A stretch of 64,000 nt of DNA from Siphlonurus alternatus (taxonomy: Eukaryota; Arthropoda; Insecta; Ephemeroptera; Siphlonuridae), in NCBI GenBank assembly GCA_949825025.1, contig OX463780.1, positions 39,288,979 through 39,352,978 of the forward strand, given 5' to 3'. The notes below the pieces were generated by a model. That model ran no database searches. It was not told the origin of the DNA and saw only the letters and a list, made by a program, of their open reading frames with translations. Of this stretch, positions 21,481 through 43,190 are shown one piece after another. How positions within the stretch are numbered: the first letter of the stretch is position 1; each line of letters begins with the position of its first letter. The position numbers were made by a program, and so were the translations under genes.

Positions 21481-22872
21481 ATGAATAGAATAGAATAGGT
21501 TTTTATTTAGCAAAAACAGCTAATACAAACATTTCATACATATATAAAAATACAATTACATAATATTTTTTTCCCTGAGAATGAAAAAACATATTATTTT
21601 ATTTTATTTTGAACTGAACATTATTTTGTAACAAGTTACAATATTAATGGATTACAGTATTTTAATAATATTTCTTTCTTAAATACATTTTTTTAACAAC
21701 TTCAACACACTCTCTTTTAAATTTTTTAATATCTGTAATTTTTTTAACATTTCTTGGTAGTAAATTAAATAATTTAAATCCACTGACCATAATTGATTTC
21801 TGATAAAATGTTTTATTTTGACGTCCAATATGAATTTCCTCTGCTGCTCTAGTATTATACTTATGAACATCATTATTTAATTTTACATTACTGCACAAAT
21901 ATGAAGGAACTTTTTTGTTTACAATTTTATGCACTAAAATCAGCATTTGTAAGGCTAACCTTTGCTTAATGGAGAGCCATTGTAAGCAATTTAACATATG
22001 TTGAACTGGGGTGTATTTACTACATTTTAATATTACTCTCATTGCTTTGTTTTGTAATATTTGCATTTGCTTAATACTTTCTTCATTACAGTTCCATAGG
22101 ATACTAGAACAATAGTCAAAATGTGGTGATATTATAGATTTATAAATTAATATTTTTGTCCAAGGACTTAAAAATTTTCCAACTCTGGCTAAATAGGCTA
22201 TTTTACTACCAATTTTTTTATTGATATATGAAACATAACTTTTAAATTTTAAATGTGAATCTATTATGATTCCAAGGTATTTAATTTCATGCACAAATTC
22301 TAGTATTTCTCCATCTATTACAACATTCTCTCGATTTTCTTCATCCAACATTTTAGATTTAACAAGTGAGGAGGGTGTAATTAACATACATTTTGACTTA
22401 CTTACATTAAGCTTCACTTTGTTTAATTTTAACCATACATTAAGCCGTTCCAAGATTTTATTTATTGCATCACACGCCTCTTTATAAGTTTTTTTTGACA
22501 CTGAAACTAGAGTATCGTCAGCAAACAAATTTAAAAATACATCATCAAATTGAATATGCAAATCATTTATATATAATATGAACAGTAATGGGCCCAGTAC
22601 AGAACCTTGTGGGATTCCGACGTCATTAATTAAGTCATTAGAAACCTTTTCATTAAATTTTGTTCTTTGTTTCCTGCTTGTTAAATAACTTTGCAAAAGA
22701 TTTACACAATTTGGACCCAATCCGTATTTTTCCAGCTTATTAATTAAAATATTTCTGTCAATTGTTTCAAAAGCACGTTTAAAATCTAACATTACAGTAA
22801 TAGTTATGTACCCATCATTAGCCTTTTTTCTCCATTCCGATAAAACTAATTGTATTGCAGTCTCACATGAAA
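21481..22872 (-). mobile_element. 5'-truncated APE-type non-LTR retrotransposon
   Basis: On the minus strand the element begins inside the reverse transcriptase domain at about 22872 and reads through the C-terminus to a stop at 21662. A 3' UTR with AATAAA (TTTATT on the plus strand at about 21502) and a (TATTC)n tail at 21481-21497 follow. The endonuclease, ORF1 and the N-terminal part of the polymerase are missing, as expected of incomplete target-primed reverse transcription. The remaining ~400 codons have no stop, so the insertion may be fairly young. I could not define a target-site duplication. Confidence 0.9.
21662..22872 (-). pseudogene. Truncated non-LTR reverse transcriptase ORF
   Basis: The frame is open from the ATG at 23023, but the first ~51 residues do not look like any polymerase; recognisable similarity starts at CETAIQLVLSEW. 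Visible motifs are LDFKRAFETID (the first catalytic Asp), VGIPQGSVLGPLLFILYIND, and LFADDT (catalytic Asp pair). The IKYLG palm/thumb motif and a C-terminal YNTRAAEE / SGFKLFNLLPRNVK region follow. An intact protein of this class would carry an N-terminal endonuclease and about twice the length. Polymerase activity from this fragment is unlikely because the fingers are missing. The motif set is jockey/CR1-like; the exact clade cannot be assigned by eye. Confidence 0.88.
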
Positions 22873-25800
22873 AATAAAAACATGTTAAAATGATTTCATA
22901 TAATATTATATTTTTTTCTTGGTTTCCATCATGTGTTGGCTGTATATTAATTATCATAGCTGGAACATTCATCTTCATCATTTTGTTCAAAACATTATCC
23001 TCTGTGACAGAGCAGGCAAGCATTTCACAATTACGTAAAATTAATTGCTATACTTAAAAAAATGTACAATGTTTTTTTATGGTTATACTATATTAAATGA
23101 CAATTTTTATCGTAATATTAATAATCATTTTAATACTAAATTTTTACAATTTACTATATTCTCTAAAAAGTCTAAAAATTATAAAATTTGTTTACTTTCA
23201 CCCTATCATGTATTATACATACATATAAATGCATCATTAAAATATTGTTACACGGTTACATATAGATTTTAGTTTCAAGTAATGATGTTGAAAACTCTCG
23301 TTATTCTTGTCTTGTAACATTAATTATTTACTTTTAATCTTTTACGTCTATATTAAAATAGAGATGTCGTCGAATACATTACAATATAATATATATTGAT
23401 TATATTCCAATTCAGACAAAATCTAGCTGAATTGAGTTTTGAATAAACAAGTATCAAGTATAGGAAAAGGTTACTTGATATAATATATAGATATATATAT
23501 TATATATTGCATTTTTTAGGGTATGATTAAAAAAATAAGAAGAAGAAGAAATAAATTTAAAAAAAAAACATTTTTTGAGAAAAGTAATTTACAAAACAAA
23601 TTTAACATTTAAATATAAATTTATGAACATGCAGGTTTCATATAAGTTAAAAGTATTAAAGAGTATCACTTAAGACTTAAGAAATAGATTCTTAAGTTAA
23701 AATACATTGTACTGTATTTTATTATTACTTATTATAGTGTTATATAATGAATATAATTATATTTATATAAAATAAATTACATAAATTTTAATTATATAAT
23801 GTATGTTGCTATCCAAAAGAGTTAGCAAATATTATCCATTAAATTGTTTTCGTTGTTGTTGAAATTACCATAAAATAAATGCTAAAAGATTTTAGTGAGC
23901 TAGGAAGTTGTGAATTACAAGTTAGTGCTTCGCCTTACCGTGCAGTCACGACAACTTCAAATAAGGGAAATACGTAGGAAACAATTGCCGGAGTTAATGG
24001 CAGCAGCAAAACCTCAGCAGGCTAATTCAGGAAGGAAGCGGTAAAAGAGACCTTATAGACCATGTATATGAAAATAGTTTTAGTTAAGTGCCATCCCCTC
24101 CCCCTCCTCCTATACGTTATATAGTGGTGCTCCCTTTCGTACACAGCATTTCGTCCGTCATAGTTATAATAATATTGTTTTATATTGATACATCATTAAT
24201 TTGGAAAATATGAAAAAAAAAATCGGTCATTTTGTAAATAAACATTTTTTTATCTTGAATATTTATTTTTAACTAATAAAATATATGTATTAAATTAGTT
24301 TGCGAAGTAAAAAGTAACGGTTGTCTATAAAGACAAGTTAGTTCATTATGCAAAATTTAATTCTCATTAGCAATTTTATTACTATTATAAAATAAATGTA
24401 ATATTATTAAAGTAATGACGAACATTGCTAACTAGAATTATAATTAAAATTAGTTGAACTTACGTTAGTTTTATTTTATAATTTTAACTTTATTCATACT
24501 ATATATTTTAAAAATGACTAATATTTTATTTAAACTTTTATTTGTGTATTTAAATTTATATTTTTAGTAAAGTTGTAACGAAATTGAATTTTGTCGAGAG
24601 TGATAATCGAGTTGTTCGAGTTAAGTTGTTCATTAGTTCACTTTATACTTGGGCACCGTGACATTTTTCAGTTCACCGCCGCAAAGTTGTTTGCTCCAAA
24701 AATTCACCCTCTCTTCGCATCCCGAGTGATGGGGGAGGAGAGTGAAGATGGGGGAGGGGGAGGATGTGGACAAGGGCCAAGTCATGCAGAGACGACGACA
24801 GAGCCCGGGCACGCGCTTGATTGTACGATAAGACAAAATTATAACACTCAAGTCATTGCGTATATTTATAAAAAAAAATGTATAAAAAATGTTTTGTTTT
24901 TAAATTTTATTTCAAATAAAAAAAATCAACATTTTCAAAACCAAATCCACAATTTTATTTTACTTTTTAATGGACAACAATGTGATTACAAAATACATCA
25001 GAATTACGTCCAACAAGAATAATTTGCATGTGTGATAATACTATTTTGTAATATAAAGTGAATTTAAAGCTCCATAAATTAAAATATAAATTGGAATTAC
25101 GGTGTCTTAAATTAATGCTATATTTAGAGGTGAATATCATTACTATAAACAAGGAAAGTAATAAAACTGTACATATGTGTTCCACAATTAATAAAATTAT
25201 GGAATCTACATTTTATTGAGCTATAAATTAATTAACACAACAAGAATATCCTAAAATTTAAATCATTTAAATTTTATTACTAATAATATTCAAGGTAATA
25301 AAATGTTGTCTTAACAGAACATTATTTGTTTGTAACGCCTTCAATGGAAATTATAAACATAAACTAAAATTAGATGTAAAATTATACAACATGTTTTTCA
25401 GAATATTTTAAAAGAACGAACTTATAAAAAAAATCTTTGTTTTACGATGATTTTTGTATTTTTTGTCTTATTTAAAAATTCTGTTCAACCCATAGAGGCT
25501 TAATTATTTGAGCCTAGGAAAATTTGTTATATAAAAGTTGAATTATTTCTCATAATTAATAATTTAAAACCCTCCCCCCTTTTAGTAGCCTTCTGATTTT
25601 AAATCAAGAACTCATTTTCCTCTAAAATTTTGCTTCAATGCTGAAACAGCAAATTCAAGTTTTTTTACATAGTTTTTAAATAGGATAGTGGGAACACAGT
25701 AAAGTCAGCCCTATTATTGAGAAATGCATTTTTTATAAATTATTTTTCACTTCTTTGTATATTTAGAAGCTGCTTCTATTTTAACTCACAAGTTGAAAAA

Positions 25801-36700: not shown

Positions 36701-36727
<27 letters not shown>
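36701..36727. repeat. (TTTA)n tail repeat of the retrotransposon
   Basis: TTTA tetranucleotides on the plus strand correspond to an (AAAT)n tail after the AATAAA of the element. Adjoining A and T runs blur the exact element-flank boundary. Confidence 0.85.
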
Positions 36728-36731
<4 letters not shown>

Positions 36732-36926
36732 TTTTGGAACTTCTTTTTGGTTGTACAAGACAAACATATGTTCAAGTCAAAATTGGACAAAATACAACAT
36801 AAAAACATCAAACTTAAACACATTTACATAAGTTATTTAACACTATCAAACACAATCACTGACAATAATAATAAAAACAAAATACAAGCCAAAGTCACCA
36901 TTAATACTGATAAATTTTAGTTTATG

Positions 36927-36980
36927 TGGAACATATATATATATACATATATATATACATATATACATACATATATACAT

Positions 36981-37011
<31 letters not shown>

Positions 37012-37100
37012 TATATATATACATATATATATATATACATACACATATACACACACATACATATATGTATATATACATATACATACATATATATATATCA
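36927..37100. repeat. TA / TACA / CA compound microsatellite inside the retrotransposon 3' UTR
   Basis: About 170 bp of alternating purine-pyrimidine sequence with mixed (TA)n, (ACAT)n and (CA)n blocks. It lies between the ORF2 stop (37141) and the terminal 3' UTR segment. Frames rich in Ile, Tyr, His and Thr across it are translations of the repeat. Alternating CA/TA DNA can adopt Z-like or cruciform forms. Confidence 0.95.
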
Positions 37101-37140
37101 GTCAATACAATGTATATGTAAATTTATAATTTTGTTTATT

Positions 37141-40100
37141 TTATAATCCTGATAATACTTTTTCAGACATTTTATTACTCTCAAAAGCTTTAATAGAGTA
37201 AAACTCTTTATTGATCAATACATTCTTTAATTTTGTGCGAAAAAGTTTACTGGTTTTTATTTCTTTCAAACATGCTGGTAAAAATTCATAAAATTTTGCT
37301 GTTTGATACATTGCACAGTTTTTGAAAAATTGTGTGTTATGTCTTTCAGTAACTACATTCGATTTATTCCTAGTATTATAGTCATGATAGCCATCATTCT
37401 GAACATAAAAATTTGGATGATTTTTTTTGAATGAGGCACAATTTAAAATATAAATGCAAGGGACAGTTAACATTTTATTAGCCTTAAAATGTGAAACACA
37501 CGACTGTCCTTTTGGTATTCTTAAAATCGTTCTAAGTGCTCTCTTTTGCAAAACAAAACATCGATTCAATAGTTCCGATTTACATCCCCAATTTATTATG
37601 CCATATGCCAAATGTGGATAAACATACGCATAATATATGGTTAGCAAGGTTTCATGAGATACATGATTCCTGATTGTATATAACATAAAATTGGCCGAAT
37701 TTATCTTCTTACAAATCGCATTTACATGTAAAGACCAATCCAAACTTTCATTAATGTGTAGACCAAGAAACTTAACAGACTCTGCTCTTTTAATTGTTTT
37801 CCCGGCTAATTGCAACAAATAACTATTCAAAGGGATTTGTCTAGGGGAATGAAATTGGATGTATTCGGTTTTAGTTGAATTTAATATTAGCTTATTATTT
37901 GTACACCATGTATGTACCTCTTCAATAGTAAGTTTAATCTTACGAATTAATTCATCTTCGGCTTCTGCTGTGATTATAGCTGTAATATCATCAGCATACT
38001 TTACTAATACCGCATTCTTGACATGATCTGATAAGTCATTTGTTCCTGTATTAAACAATGTGGCTGACATTTTTCCTCCTTGAGGAATTCCAAGTGTAAT
38101 CGGTAATTTGTCTGATTTATATGTAATATTTTGACCGTTAGAATTTGAATTTAATTCAACATATTGTTGTCTGTTAGTTAGATATGAATCTAATAGATTA
38201 CGACTCGAAACTCCTATTCCCATGTTATCAAATTTATTCAATAATACATCTTTATTTAGACTATCAAACGCTTTAGATAAATCAAAAAATATTGCAACGC
38301 AAAATAGTTTATTATCTATTGCCATATAAACGTGGCTTAAAAGATCAAATAGTGCTGTATCAGTAGAACGGTCTTTCAAGAATCCATGTTGACAGGGAGC
38401 AATTAAATGATTTTCTGTTTGATAATCCGTAATTTGATCGTCTAATGTATTCTCAAACAATTTGCCAAAAACAGATGTATTTGATATTGGTCTGTAATTA
38501 TCAATAATGAAAGTTGGGCCTTTTTTATGAGTTGCATAAATCTTAGAATCCTTTAAACAATCAGGAAATATACCATCTGATATTGAATGGTTAATTAAAT
38601 TAGATAAAGGGACAGACAAAACAGAAGCACAATATTTTACAACAGTATATGGTATTTCGTCTGGGCCAGCTGCATACTTATTAGGAAGGGATTTCATTCG
38701 ATTTAAAATATAAATCGGGTCTATCGAACTAAAATTTAATTTCGTTTTACTTTTATCAGAATCGACAATAATTAAAGTATTAGAATAATTAAAAGGAAAT
38801 TTTTCTGTTATTATATTTTCAATTGTCTTGACAAAAAAATTATTAAATAAATTGCAAATTAGTTTGGGGTCTGTAATCGTTACACTATTTATACATAATT
38901 CATAATTATTCTTATTATTAACATTTGTTTTCTTTGTTTTGCATTCTTTATTAATTATATTCCACGTAGCTTTAATTTTATTATTAGCTCCTTTTATTTC
39001 ATGGTCATTCTCTTTAAATTTAGCGGTGGCCATATTTTGTTTATAAGATTTCATTTCTTTTTTATAAGTAGACTCTAAATTTGGGTCAGTAAATTTTACA
39101 TCATAGTGTAAGCGTTTTAAAGAAATCCCTTGTTCGTAAAGATGGGGGTTATTGAGTATCCAGGAAGGTTTATTTTTGTTACTTGAAATTTTTCTTTTAA
39201 CAACAGGAAAAGCCTCGTTGAAATGATAAATAAAAATTTCAAGAAATTTTGACCATCTCTCATTTGAATTGAGATCAGGATTTAATAAATCATTCCATTC
39301 TTCACGAATTAATAGGAGCAGAAAATTATCTAAATTGCATTTGTCAAATATTCGTTTATAATAAAATTGTTTTTCTTGTATTTTATCAATGTTCTTCGAG
39401 TTATTTAATGTTATTGTGACTATAGTATAGTTATGGTCCGACAGAGTTGTTTTTTCAGTTTTATAATTAGTATTAATAGCAGATGTACTTTTAATAATAT
39501 GATCAATTAAAGTAGCCGTTTTTATTGTTTCTCTAGTAGCGGAACTATTAACAATTTCCAACTTGTATGAGTCCAGTATATCTTTATATAAAATTACATT
39601 TGCATCATCAATAAATAAATTAAGATTTACGTCACCCGCAATAATAAAAAAATCATCATTATTTTTACAGTATTTAATTAATTTTTTGCATAACATTTCA
39701 AATTCTTTTAAGAATGGTTTTATATTATTTTCTGTGTTGTCAAAATTCTGAATTTTTTTCATCACTCTAGATATATTAGGTGGGCGATATATAGAAGCAA
39801 AATAAATGTTTGTTGTATTGTTAATTACTAATTTCGCTATGCAGCATTCAAAAACTGATTCAATGGATTTTATTTTAATATCATTTATATTTGAACCTTT
39901 ACGAGATAGAATTACTACTCCCCCACATTTTTGAATATCTCTACAGTAATATGAAACCATCATAAAATTTTTAAAATTTATTGTTATAATTTCAGATTCA
40001 TTCAGCCCATGTTCACATAATATAATTATATCACAATCAACCATTTCAAGAAAATACTCAAATTTTGGTAATTTATTTTTTAGGCCTGGTAAGTTAAGCT

Positions 40101-40182
40101 GAAGAATTTTAATATTACATGGGGCTGAGTGAACCTGAACATTAAGTTTTTTTTTTGTTGGGCAATTTGGTGGAGATACTGT
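37141..40182 (-). CDS. Non-LTR retrotransposon ORF2: APE endonuclease and reverse transcriptase
   Basis: The first ATG is at 40044 (967 aa), but the frame is open up to a stop at 40183-40185, and typical endonuclease N-terminal sequence ([12 protein letters not shown]) is encoded upstream of that ATG. Numbering from the ATG, endonuclease motifs are Glu11 (ILCEHGL), IYRPPN 85-90, GDVN 137-140, LIDH 179-182 and SDH 202-204. Reverse transcriptase motifs are NYRPIS 516-521, FFDLSKAFD 586-594, GIPQGG 652-657 and YADD 683-686. The C-terminal region YNTRNK 889-894 and FLPACLKEI 921-929 is shared with two truncated remnants in this window. The residues after GIPQGG ([13 protein letters not shown]) differ from the usual SVLGPLLFxxYxND. 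It would nick target DNA and copy its own RNA in place. The jockey/CR1-like grouping is approximate. Confidence 0.93.
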
Positions 40183-42478
40183 TTAGTGTACTGGCACGGA
40201 GCCGTGATCTCACAGGGGAAGATTGTGTATCTTCCTGAGAATTTTTAATGGGGGATTTCAATTGAGATGCCAGATTAAAATTATCAACATTTGAACTCAA
40301 AACATTATCATTAATAGTATCATTTTTACTAATAATGGATGGTGAGACAACAGATGAAATTTCATTAATTGATTTTTCTGAATTAATTGCACTTTTCTTA
40401 GCAGCGGTTTCATCATTTTTTAATAGATCATTTGTAAATTGGAATTTATTATCTAAAATCGTTAGTAAAAAAGCTTTGAGTCTTGGATGTAATGAGTTCA
40501 GATCTATAATATCTTGATTCAATTCAAGAGAACATACAGGATCTGGTAAGGGTGGTCCTGATTCAGGCAAACTATTGTTTACCAAAACAAGACTTGACTC
40601 CTCACTCGGGGCAATACCGTCGTTCGCCGGAGCGAGGCCTGACTCCTCGCCCGGGGTGGTACCGTCGTTCACCGAAACGAGGCCTGACTCCTCGCCCGGG
40701 GTGGTACCGTCGTTCACCGAAGCGAGGCCTGACTCCTCGCCCGGGGTGGTACCGTCGTTCACCGGAGCAAGGCCTGACTCCTCGCCCGGGGTGGTACCGT
40801 CGTTCACCGAAGCGAGGCCTGACTCCTCGCCCGGGGTGGTACCGTCGTTCACCGAAACGAGGCCTGACTCCTCGCCCGGGGTGGTACCGTCGTTCACCGA
40901 AGCGAGGCCTGACTCCTCGCCCGGGGTGGTACCGTCGTTCACCGAAGCGAGGCCTGACTCCTCGCCCGGGGTGGTACCGTCGTTCACCTGAGCGAGGCCT
41001 GACTTCTCGCCCCGGGTATTAGACATCTGCTCCTTCGTGGCTGGCACTGGCAGTCCCTCCACCCTCACTATGTCAGGCGTGACAATTGAGGGGCGTGTAC
41101 TCTCTCGCAAGGTAGAGGTCTGGCATTGCCCGGAACTTACAAGGACCGCCAGGTTATTAGAAGGAGGGGCCCTAGCGGTAATGACGTTTGCTAGAGTAGA
41201 TTGGGCTGATTCCTCAAAGAGTTCTTTAACAGCTGTTTCATCATCATTACTTGCAACTTTCTTTGCTAATGTCTTCCATCCATAATAAGCAACAATTTCA
41301 ATGTCAAGATCTTTGAACACTGAAATAATGTCTTGTTTTATAGTAGACCAGTTGAAACCGTCTCTGCCACATGCTAAACGAGGAATTGCGAGTTTTTTTA
41401 TACTTAAAATCTCACAGATATTTCTTAAATTTTTTAATGCAAGTAGTATATTTGAGTGGTCAGGATAGCTGTTATGGACAGATTTAGTAACTAAGTAGAA
41501 AATAAAACTGTCATCTGAAGATAAAACAGCTACTTCACCAGTATTTTTGAGTTGACTCTTTAAAAAAGGGGTTTGTCCATGTTTTTTTTTAAATTGAGTT
41601 GCAACTCCACGTCCTTGTTTAAATGTTTTATCAACGCAGTGGGCGTAGGATGTGCCTGGTGGTGCGTCAAACAAATTTCCTTTCTTTTCAATGAAACGGA
41701 AATTTTGATGTTTTCTTTTTATATTATGGTTATTGGTATTTTTCTGATGTAAAGTCGGAAAAGACTCATTATTAATATGTTGTAGTACTGAAAATGAGTT
41801 TGATGTTGGTACTGTCGCACCCCACGGATTATAAGGAGGTCTTGGGGGGCGCAATTGGGCACCCTGGCTTTGGCGCGGCAGCTGGGTAGGGTGCGGTCGC
41901 TGAGCGCTCAGTTGGTGTTGGAGCGGGCGACGAGGTTGATACTGACTTACAACGTGCTGCCGGCGTGTCTGCTGCTGGCGTGATTGCTCAGATTGTTGCT
42001 GCTGCTGCTGGCGTGATTGCTGCTGCTGCTGTGGCACTCTAGTGAACGACGTCGGCTGAGGTGGGCGTTGTTTTGTGTAACCAGCCGTCCTCCAAGGTCG
42101 CGAGAATTGAACTGGTGACCTGTCATAATCAGCTGTTTGTATATGACATTGATGATTTGAATTTCCCTCATTATTAAAGTTATTTGCAGAAGAAATTCCA
42201 TTTCTTTCATTTAACATTAATTTAATAGTGCATTTAATTTCTTCTCTAAAGTCAGTAAATAAGTCCTTAATATTATGTTGAATTAATTTGTACATTGGAT
42301 GTACAGTCAGATCATTTGATAGGCTTTCATTGGACATATGTATATCAGAATTATTTTTATCATAATTAATAAATTGTGAGTTAAAAACCTCCGGTGTAGT
42401 TCTAGCAGGTGGCGGCCAGTGTGGTACGAGCGGAGAGCAGAACTGAGGTGTAGCACGCATGGAGCGTAGGTCCGTCAT
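40142..42478 (-). CDS. Non-LTR retrotransposon ORF1 with TARG1/OARD1-like macro domain
   Basis: 778 aa. Residues 1-120 are polar with a helical segment at 60-92. Residues 121-220 are rich in Gln, Arg and Pro, including a poly-Q tract at 149-170. Residues ~261-400 form a macro domain: KGNLFDAPPG, SYAHCVD, a glycine loop QGRGVA followed by FKKKHG, GEVAVLSSDDSFIFYLVTK, then IPRLACGRDGFNW and IVAYY. This order and wording match human TARG1 (OARD1), an ADP-ribosyl-glutamate and O-acetyl-ADP-ribose hydrolase. The position of the TARG1 catalytic Lys is Ser320, while the catalytic Asp is kept (Asp373). The adenine-contacting Asp of the GD motif is Asn268. Residues 499-633 are nine 15-residue repeats (NDGTTPGEESGLASV). 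The tail is basic and ends at TAA. ORF1 proteins normally bind element RNA; no zinc knuckle or RRM is visible. Confidence 0.9.
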   Translation of the reverse strand: MTDLRSMRATPQFCSPLVPHWPPPARTTPEVFNSQFINYDKNNSDIHMSNESLSNDLTVHPMYKLIQHNIKDLFTDFREEIKCTIKLMLNERNGISSANNFNNEGNSNHQCHIQTADYDRSPVQFSRPWRTAGYTKQRPPQPTSFTRVPQQQQQSRQQQQQQSEQSRQQQTRRQHVVSQYQPRRPLQHQLSAQRPHPTQLPRQSQGAQLRPPRPPYNPWGATVPTSNSFSVLQHINNESFPTLHQKNTNNHNIKRKHQNFRFIEKKGNLFDAPPGTSYAHCVDKTFKQGRGVATQFKKKHGQTPFLKSQLKNTGEVAVLSSDDSFIFYLVTKSVHNSYPDHSNILLALKNLRNICEILSIKKLAIPRLACGRDGFNWSTIKQDIISVFKDLDIEIVAYYGWKTLAKKVASNDDETAVKELFEESAQSTLANVITARAPPSNNLAVLVSSGQCQTSTLRESTRPSIVTPDIVRVEGLPVPATKEQMSNTRGEKSGLAQVNDGTTPGEESGLASVNDGTTPGEESGLASVNDGTTPGEESGLVSVNDGTTPGEESGLASVNDGTTPGEESGLAPVNDGTTPGEESGLASVNDGTTPGEESGLVSVNDGTTPGEESGLAPANDGIAPSEESSLVLVNNSLPESGPPLPDPVCSLELNQDIIDLNSLHPRLKAFLLTILDNKFQFTNDLLKNDETAAKKSAINSEKSINEISSVVSPSIISKNDTINDNVLSSNVDNFNLASQLKSPIKNSQEDTQSSPVRSRLRASTLNSISTKLPNKKKT
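40580..40984 (-). repeat. 45-bp GC-rich minisatellite within ORF1, nine units
   Basis: Nine in-frame 45-bp units encode NDGTTPGEESGLxxV. Eight are nearly identical and the ninth (C-terminal) is diverged. Unit-to-unit changes fall mostly at A/V and S/P codons. The array is far richer in G+C than the surrounding element and genome. Uniformity implies recent expansion or homogenisation with the frame maintained. Confidence 0.95.
41279..41698 (-). other. Macro domain segment of ORF1
   Basis: DNA span encoding ORF1 residues ~261-400, the TARG1/OARD1-like macro fold. It is a complete domain by length (about 140 residues) and keeps the AHC, GxGxA and CGxD motifs. It is listed separately so that it can be extracted and searched on its own. 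Confidence 0.88.
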
Positions 42479-43190
42479 GATGTTGTTCTCAAGAGAATAT
42501 TTATCACACCTTTATATTTAAAGTTCAATGCACAGGACACTTAGTAGTAATGTATCACTTAATAGAAAAAAACTTCAACTTTCCGATGAACAGACTTTCT
42601 TTTTAATTAAATGATAGATAAAAAGGTTAATCTTTAAAAATTACGGAGCAGTGAAAATATTGTAGTTAAGCTCTCAGGTGCTGCCACCTACAATAAAATG
42701 GAAGCGAATAAAACATTTCTCTATTTATTTTAGCAAGTTTTATAGTTACCTATTATTTTTTTATAAAAGTTGAAAAATATCATTCAACATTATAACAGCC
42801 CATAGCCATCAGCTTTATTTATTTTAAGTTGAAATTAATCAAAAAGGAAAATTAATAAAAAAAAAACTAATGACAAGTTTAGTTATTTTTAATTAGTGAG
42901 ATTTAATAACAGTTTTTATAATTTATTGCAACAAAAAATTAAATTTGTAGGAAGAAAAAAAATGTATATTAACATTCTGCTATAGCTTAAAGGCAAAAAG
43001 AAAATGAAAAAAAAAAAAACTCTTTCACATTAAACATTCTTTTTTTTTTTTTTTATAAAAAAAAATAACAACGTCCAATTTATGTGTATTTTTATTTACG
43101 ATCAATTTCAAAATTTTTGGTGTGAGAGGCAGCTGTTGCTGCACTTGAAGCCGTTGTGTGCATGCAGGTCGTCGTAACAGCACGTGGCTC
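42479..43190. other. Presumed 5' UTR of the retrotransposon, then AT-rich flank
   Basis: Sequence just upstream of ORF1 should contain the element's 5' UTR and internal promoter, but no boundary or duplication is visible. A minus-strand TAGGTGGCAGCACCT, partly CTCF-like, lies near 42679-42693 and could be close to the element's 5' end. Beyond about 42720 the DNA is AT-rich with homopolymer runs. Confidence 0.35.

Follow-up and report, generated by a model that had tools for sequence, protein, structure and literature searches.

A TARG1-type macro domain in the ORF1 of non-LTR retrotransposons of Siphlonurus alternatus

The proteins encoded by the first open reading frame (ORF1) are the less understood part of long interspersed nuclear elements (LINEs) (PMC4120745), and a locus of the ephemeropteran Siphlonurus alternatus encodes one with a domain of the ADP-ribose-processing type. 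The locus lies in a window of 64,000 nucleotides, the whole stretch of DNA analysed here (assembly GCA_949825025.1, contig OX463780.1, positions 39,288,979 to 39,352,978 of the forward strand). Within it, a retrotransposon lacking long terminal repeats (non-LTR) contains a macro domain resembling human TARG1, also called OARD1 or C6orf130. A first-pass annotation, made from the letters alone, had recognised this domain at 41279..41698 and proposed that the element exploits or counters ADP-ribose signalling at its insertion site. The coordinates were correct, and the strand, which had been left unnamed, is minus. That interpretation is supported in part: the TARG1 type, the linkage to a non-LTR element and the recurrence in many families with an ORF2 behind the domain have stood, and the hydrolase activity, its substrate and its benefit to the element are what we infer. 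The element is best read as a recently active one whose TARG1-type macro ORF1, with an intact catalytic pair, would act as a mono-ADP-ribosyl hydrolase on the ORF1 ribonucleoprotein (RNP); the probability of this reading is put at roughly 0.55.

The macro domain and the element that carries it

The domain is encoded at 41279..41716 on the minus strand and covers ORF1 residues 266-411 counted from stop to stop (255-400 from the ATG). All seven motifs from which it had been recognised (KGNLF, AHCV, GRGVA, FKKKHG, GEVAVL, FYLVTK and CGRDGFNW) are present in the translation. In a phmmer search against PDB sequences, human OARD1/TARG1 (4j5r) aligned with residues 3-144 of the query, which is 146 residues long, at an E value of 9.9e-27. 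Of the eight PDB sequences listed, OARD1/C6orf130 takes the top five places; two entries at about 1e-5, identified as DarG macro domains in the Foldseek listing, come next. An AlphaFold2 model of the domain, aligned with the proteins P0001 and P0002 described below, has a pLDDT of 79.9 and a pTM of 0.79 and presents a clear predicted macro fold. In a Foldseek comparison with the PDB, ranks 1-8 were all TARG1, with TM scores of 0.82-0.87 by query length and identities of 35-37%; the best match, 4j5q, scored 0.87 by query and 0.90 by target length, and Thermus DarG followed the TARG1 ranks. The E value and the predicted fold rule out a chance resemblance, and on both the domain is placed in the TARG1 group of the TARG1/ALC1-like macro domains. 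Pfam Macro also matches the window copy, at an E value of 3.5e-4 and 20.9 bits against a cut-off of 22 bits, and reaches 25-27 bits in sister families, the 27 bits of L005 being above the cut-off. Since the window copy scores below it, automatic annotation could miss this domain.

The catalytic pair of TARG1 consists of Lys84 and Asp125 (PMC9411070). Sequence alignment places Lys343 (codon 41483..41485, minus strand) and Asp384 (codon 41360..41362, minus strand) of the window ORF1 opposite these residues, at the same spacing of 41 residues. Conservation was assessed in 33 distinct domains, a set in which identical rows were merged and which comprises the elements, two host-like frames and L064, whose kind is unclear; L001 and L002 yielded no domain match in the alignment. 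The catalytic Lys is kept in all 33 domains and the Asp in 30 of the 32 covering that position. Of 32 domains, 30 retain the histidine of the AHC motif, and all 32 have one tryptophan as well as the second glycine of GxG. Active-site residues rank among the best-conserved positions of the domain. The likeness to human TARG1 therefore comprises macro subtype, fold and spacing of the catalytic pair. The difference lies in the context, since TARG1 is a small host protein, whereas here the domain is embedded in an ORF1 of some 780 residues, bordered by long stretches of low complexity.

By its sequence, the window element is a two-ORF non-LTR (LINE) retrotransposon with an apurinic/apyrimidinic-type (APE) endonuclease. 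It is about 6.0 kb long and occupies 36701..42689 on the minus strand, with a 5' end near 42689, the match to other copies breaking at 42671-42699 in 25 of 29 copy comparisons. At the 3' end, an (AAAT)n tail array at 36701-36728 closes the element near 36701. ORF1 (40142..42511, minus strand) is a single open frame of 789 codons from stop to stop, with its first ATG at 42478. As the first-pass annotation had it, this frame stands directly upstream of an ORF2 (37141..40182, minus strand, 1013 codons) for an APE-type endonuclease and a reverse transcriptase (RT). Pfam RVT_1 matches the window ORF2 at an E value of 1.9e-30. Its endonuclease half gave no Pfam match at E <= 1; the sister ORF2 of L043 matches Exo_endo_phos_2 at 2.4e-7, above the cut-off of that model. 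The window copy shows all seven APE/RT motif patterns applied (endonuclease motifs and YADD). Of 11 ORF2 proteins tried, 8 have the full set, L079 lacks one pattern and L080 and L082 lack two apiece. Dispersed copies with 30 distinct flanks, 5' truncation and the (AAAT)n tail are further LINE hallmarks. No clear target-site duplication was seen at the window copy, where only 6-base low-complexity matches occur.

Among 448 elements, ORF1 proteins have been classified into those with an RNA recognition motif (RRM) and CCHC, L1-type, PHD with or without RRM, esterase, and unclassified (PMC4120745). The macro domain is not among the types given in the part of that survey used here, which agrees with the earlier impression that it is foreign to the usual ORF1 repertoire. 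Pfam scans of ten and five ORF1s, one of them P0001 from another assembly, found Macro in 9/10 and 4/5. The same scans detected no RRM, CCHC/zinc knuckle, PHD, esterase or L1-type/Transposase_22 domain at E <= 0.1, with the limit that diverged RRMs, which were sought by HMM-HMM comparison in PMC4120745, can escape Pfam. Searches of open-access literature, judged by titles and abstract beginnings and including PMC8003356, PMC12731758, PMC2825203 and PMC11088682, turned up no macro-domain ORF1, Repbase reports and subscription papers lying outside this scope. Immune TRADD-N genes have been reported fused with retrotransposons, and no macro ORF1 appears in the portion of that report considered (PMC8195603). 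The best reading of these sequences is that the macro ORF1 represents a new ORF1 type. In other respects the element resembles the CR1/L2/Jockey group, with two ORFs, APE and RT in ORF2, 5' truncation and ORF1 exchange, but differs from the ORF1 types I-V listed for it in the text consulted (PMC4120745). A functional parallel is the esterase ORF1 of CR1/L2, likewise a hydrolase in ORF1, whose passage between lineages has been ascribed to ORF1 transfer (PMC4120745, PMC3905857). The esterase, however, is not an ADP-ribose enzyme and is reported from two exclusively vertebrate groups (PMC4120745).

Copies, constraint and exchange of the macro ORF1

The genome, of 455.7 Mb in 102 contigs, was searched with the window macro domain, and 150 of 315 candidate places were scored; a parallel endonuclease search scored 150 of 715. 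Every one of the 150 scored macro places has an E value of 6.5e-27 or lower, and identities range between 100% and 37%. For 146 of them an open frame of 450 codons or longer is listed, and three contain a stop within the domain. At least one of these places (C5:3515629, L083) resembles a host gene exon and not an element, and two others (C1:39862941 and C1:39863152) seem to be fragments of a single copy. The window family has 67 macro places, and in 65 of these an endonuclease match follows on the same strand no more than 3 kb downstream, in line with the linkage of domain and ORF2. Looking upstream from the 105 full-length endonuclease places of this family, a scored macro place was present inside 3 kb for 68 and absent for 37. 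Ten of the latter were read, and all ten are the same element, 5' truncated at positions corresponding to window 40478-41359; copies devoid of the domain by design are discounted to that extent. Fourteen elements were read more fully (the window element, L039-L046, L077 and L079-L082), and in 14/14 the macro ORF1 is followed by endonuclease and RT frames, the endonuclease of L077 being recognised by its match to L043 at 35% identity. ORF2 is split into several frames in L042, L045, L046, L077 and L081. On these sequences, the macro domain recurs stably across a varied set of related elements of the genome.

The spread of the window family was examined in 30 places, the window and 29 fetched ones, L020 (the window's own place) being left out of the pairwise count. 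The median divergence is 2 differences per 2400 bases. Differences of 349-352 occur in 29 of the 435 pairs, which would follow if each of these included L029, whose 5' end falls within the compared stretch. Each of the 30 fetched places has a 5' flank of its own. Because copies differ so little while their flanks differ, the window family has spread very recently.

Selection on the domain was estimated from the ratio of nonsynonymous (dN) to synonymous (dS) divergence. Among 528 domain pairs, 20 were usable at 0.05 < dS < 1.5, including pairs with the fragments L004 and L060; the pairs share branches and hence are not independent. In 18 of these 20 pairs dN/dS is 0.05-0.21, and in the other two it is 0.35 and 0.43. 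In six ORF1 pairs, dS being near or at saturation in several, dN is in every case lower in the macro domain than in the regions on either side of it, at 0.38-0.48 of the N-terminal and 0.26-0.74 of the C-terminal value. Between the window element and L040, for example, dN is 0.65 in the N-terminal part, 0.31 in the macro domain, 0.70 in the C-terminal part and 0.19 in ORF2. Measured against ORF2 in five pairs, the dN of the domain is of similar size in three; in the other two it is roughly 1.6 and 2.1 times as high. The macro domain is thus the constrained core of ORF1, since dN is lowest there, with ORF2 equally or more constrained.

Reticulate evolution of ORF1 has been reported for other ORF1 types by Metcalfe and Casane (PMC4120745), and a similar exchange is suggested here by the family of L045, L085 and L086, three places that are 99.6-99.7% identical over 4.8-4.9 kb. 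Over 442 residues, its ORF1 shares 51% identity with the L044 ORF1. For the RT part, in contrast, identity is 55% with L046 and just 31% with L044. Accordingly, the macro tree groups the domain of this family with L043, L044, L062, L063 and L065 (a six-row set, support 100/99), and the ORF2 tree groups its RT with L046 (100). From its sequence the family is chimeric, with ORF1 and ORF2 resembling different lineages and a macro domain on both sides. As L046 itself encodes a macro ORF1, one macro ORF1 seems to have replaced another.

Several TARG1-like frames of the genome stand apart from these elements. L083 and L084 are short, with 167 and 182 codons, and each carries TTGTTGCAGG, splice-acceptor-like, just upstream of the domain; by sequence each resembles one large exon of a host TARG1 gene. 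The window domain is 36% and 42% identical to these two host-like frames. L078 (C3:10610300-10616300) combines two macro stretches (Pfam E 1.3e-12) and a repetitive tail in one frame of 563 codons; its 6 kb contain no RT frame of at least 180 codons, and it is possibly a host gene.

The macro tree, from which the fragments L004 and L060 as well as L005 were left out, places the host-like frames and human TARG1 outside the element domains. Inside them, beside L046 and on long branches, falls P0002, a gene model of Callosobruchus maculatus. L064 was labelled as an element in this tree, and its surroundings (L078) have no RT frame among the frames of at least 180 codons. A constraint grouping the element rows without P0002 and L064 is mildly rejected (p-AU 0.039), and a single origin of the element domains is not proven by this tree. 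The ORF2 tree, built by a quick method, comprises 14 element rows together with 60 database rows out of 118 usable ones. In it, 12 of the 14 macro-bearing rows form one group (SH-aLRT 99), and all 14 lie on one side of a branch with SH-aLRT 70; the database relatives listed are nearly all unnamed.

The source of the domain was sought with single-protein queries, which detect close relatives only. A scan of viral contigs revealed no such relative. A scan of genome contigs returned loci in one bacterial and one archaeal metagenome-assembled genome, with identities of 37% and 25%; these are no closer than human TARG1 (35-37%), and on these scans a viral or prokaryotic source is discounted. A profile of ten ORF1s, run against 5.8 billion proteins in mostly non-eukaryotic collections, matched only P0001, a protein from another assembly that is 72% identical over the searched part. 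P0002 resembles the elements in combining a retroelement coding sequence with a TARG1-type domain in which Lys and Asp are kept, but there an LTR-type RT, of the Ty3/gypsy type, and an RNase H precede the macro domain. P0002 is perhaps a second retroelement class with a TARG1-like domain, or may be an annotation fusion in a partial gene model.

Possible roles of the ORF1 macro domain

The published activities of TARG1 indicate what an ORF1 domain of this type might do. TARG1 takes ADP-ribose off acidic residues and off 5' and 3' phosphates of double-stranded DNA and single-stranded RNA; it also hydrolyses O-acetyl-ADP-ribose and binds RNA oligomers, and its accumulation at damaged DNA depends on poly(ADP-ribose) (PAR) (PMC8053099). 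Phosphates at DNA breaks are modified by the PAR polymerases (PARPs) 1-3 and RNA ends by PARP10, PARP11, PARP15 and TRPT1, and TARG1 also reverses RNA ADP-ribosylation (PMC6582358). Given these activities and the marking of DNA breaks and RNA ends, the macro domain probably rides on the ORF1 RNP as an ADP-ribose eraser. It would strip host-placed ADP-ribose from the RNA ends of the element, from the nicked target DNA or from nearby proteins, and its removal would shield the RNP or the priming step from a block based on ADP-ribose. The largely conserved active site suggests that these elements erase or read a host mark of DNA damage or defence during copying.

A broader proposal holds that the whole retrotransposon group encodes an ORF1 ADP-ribosylhydrolase as a counter-defence, stripping host ADP-ribose from element RNA or nicked target during target-primed reverse transcription, in analogy with viral macro domains; we regard it as tentative, at somewhat under even odds. 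Alphaviruses and coronaviruses offer the parallel of a macro fold borne by a replicating genetic parasite, and the macro domains of Venezuelan equine encephalitis virus and SARS reverse RNA and DNA ADP-ribosylation (PMC6582358). These viral domains differ in being of the MACROD-like class and in lying within viral replication proteins instead of an ORF1, and the alphavirus ones are 13-17% identical to the window domain in the structural alignments shown by Foldseek. If the counter-defence reading is true, ADP-ribosylation restricts retrotransposons in this host lineage, and the arms race around macro domains would extend from RNA viruses to transposable elements. The list of ORF1 domains in the cited part of PMC4120745 contains no enzyme of ADP-ribose metabolism; here a macro ORF1 has kept its catalytic pair through deep divergence and ORF1 exchange and is spreading recently. 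With such an ORF1 one can test directly if retrotransposition is limited by the ADP-ribose that the host places on RNA, DNA ends or chromatin.

Several observations weigh against an enzymatic role of the domain. The best NCBIfam model for ORF1 is DarG (E 1.1e-9, 38 bits, cut-off 250), an enzyme without the Asp of the TARG1 dyad (PMC9411070). In the family of L005-L008 (four places, to which L077 also belongs), the Lys is kept, the Asp is replaced by Asn and the conserved His by Thr, and a 755-codon ORF1 frame is nevertheless retained. Hydrolysis through the TARG1 dyad would hence not be required in every family. Purifying selection is expected for any needed part of an autonomous element, and would be equally expected if the domain merely bound ADP-ribose or RNA. 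The eraser model also needs ADP-ribose writers in the host, which are assumed here.

The alternative that survives best, though it is held to be unlikely, is that the domain is a reader. It would bind ADP-ribose with no need for cleavage and anchor the ORF1 RNP at PARylated nicks or on damaged chromatin, aiding target search or the recruitment of repair factors. Binding of ADP-ribose is common among macro domains. The PAR-dependent gathering of TARG1 at damaged DNA agrees with such a function, as does the long ORF1 frame of the L005-L008 family, whose macro domain is a possible reader-only version judging from its residues. A pure reader would, however, have no need of the Lys-Asp pair, which is kept in 30 of 32 distinct domains.

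Less probable still is a role as an RNA-binding module, with the macro fold as the nucleic-acid-binding part in place of RRM or zinc knuckle and the active site as a remnant. The blank Pfam result for other ORF1 domains in the 15 ORF1s and the binding of RNA oligomers by TARG1 would fit this role. Yet the active-site residues are among the best-conserved positions, diverged RRMs may have gone unrecognised, and Q- and R-rich linkers could be the RNA binders instead.

Anti-silencing is about as doubtful, or slightly more so. In that case the domain would remove mono-ADP-ribose from chromatin proteins or consume O-acetyl-ADP-ribose, opposing sirtuin-dependent heterochromatin over the element. Mammalian SIRT6 mono-ADP-ribosylates KAP1 and thereby packs L1 into heterochromatin (PMC4695847), and O-acetyl-ADP-ribose is a TARG1 substrate. 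Nothing, however, ties this pathway, described for mammals, to the present host, and the model requires ORF1 to work on chromatin in trans, to the benefit of competing copies too.

A chance fusion, assembly join or host gene, with a host TARG1 exon landed beside a retrotransposon, could draw on the two host-exon-like frames L083 and L084, but it is practically eliminated by the many copies with different flanks, by an arrangement common to 14 elements of different families and by the low identity of the window domain to those frames.

Other features of the element and the window

The start of ORF2 overlaps the end of ORF1 in a different frame at 40145..40182 on the minus strand, and the overlap contains a run of ten A. 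In the window copy, the first ATG of the ORF2 frame lies 100 nt beyond the ORF1 stop. Across 15 elements, the overlapping ORF2 frame is +1 in some families and +2 in others, and in 7 of the 15 the first ATG of ORF2 lies at least 371 nt beyond the ORF1 stop or is absent from the stretch read. ORF2 may be translated by frameshift or by non-AUG reinitiation near the A-rich stop.

A 45-bp (15-residue) tandem repeat lies beyond the macro domain in the C-terminal half of ORF1, at 40595..41017 on the minus strand, with 9.4 copies that are 94% alike and rich in G+C. A similar 15-residue repeat also occurs in the L039 family. Structure prediction for the whole ORF1 gave no usable model (mean pLDDT 31), and a candidate helix near the N terminus (residues 72-103; 42203..42298, minus strand) is accordingly of low confidence. 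Elsewhere in the window, another minus-strand frame of 461 codons at 21662-23047 appears reverse transcriptase-like by eye.

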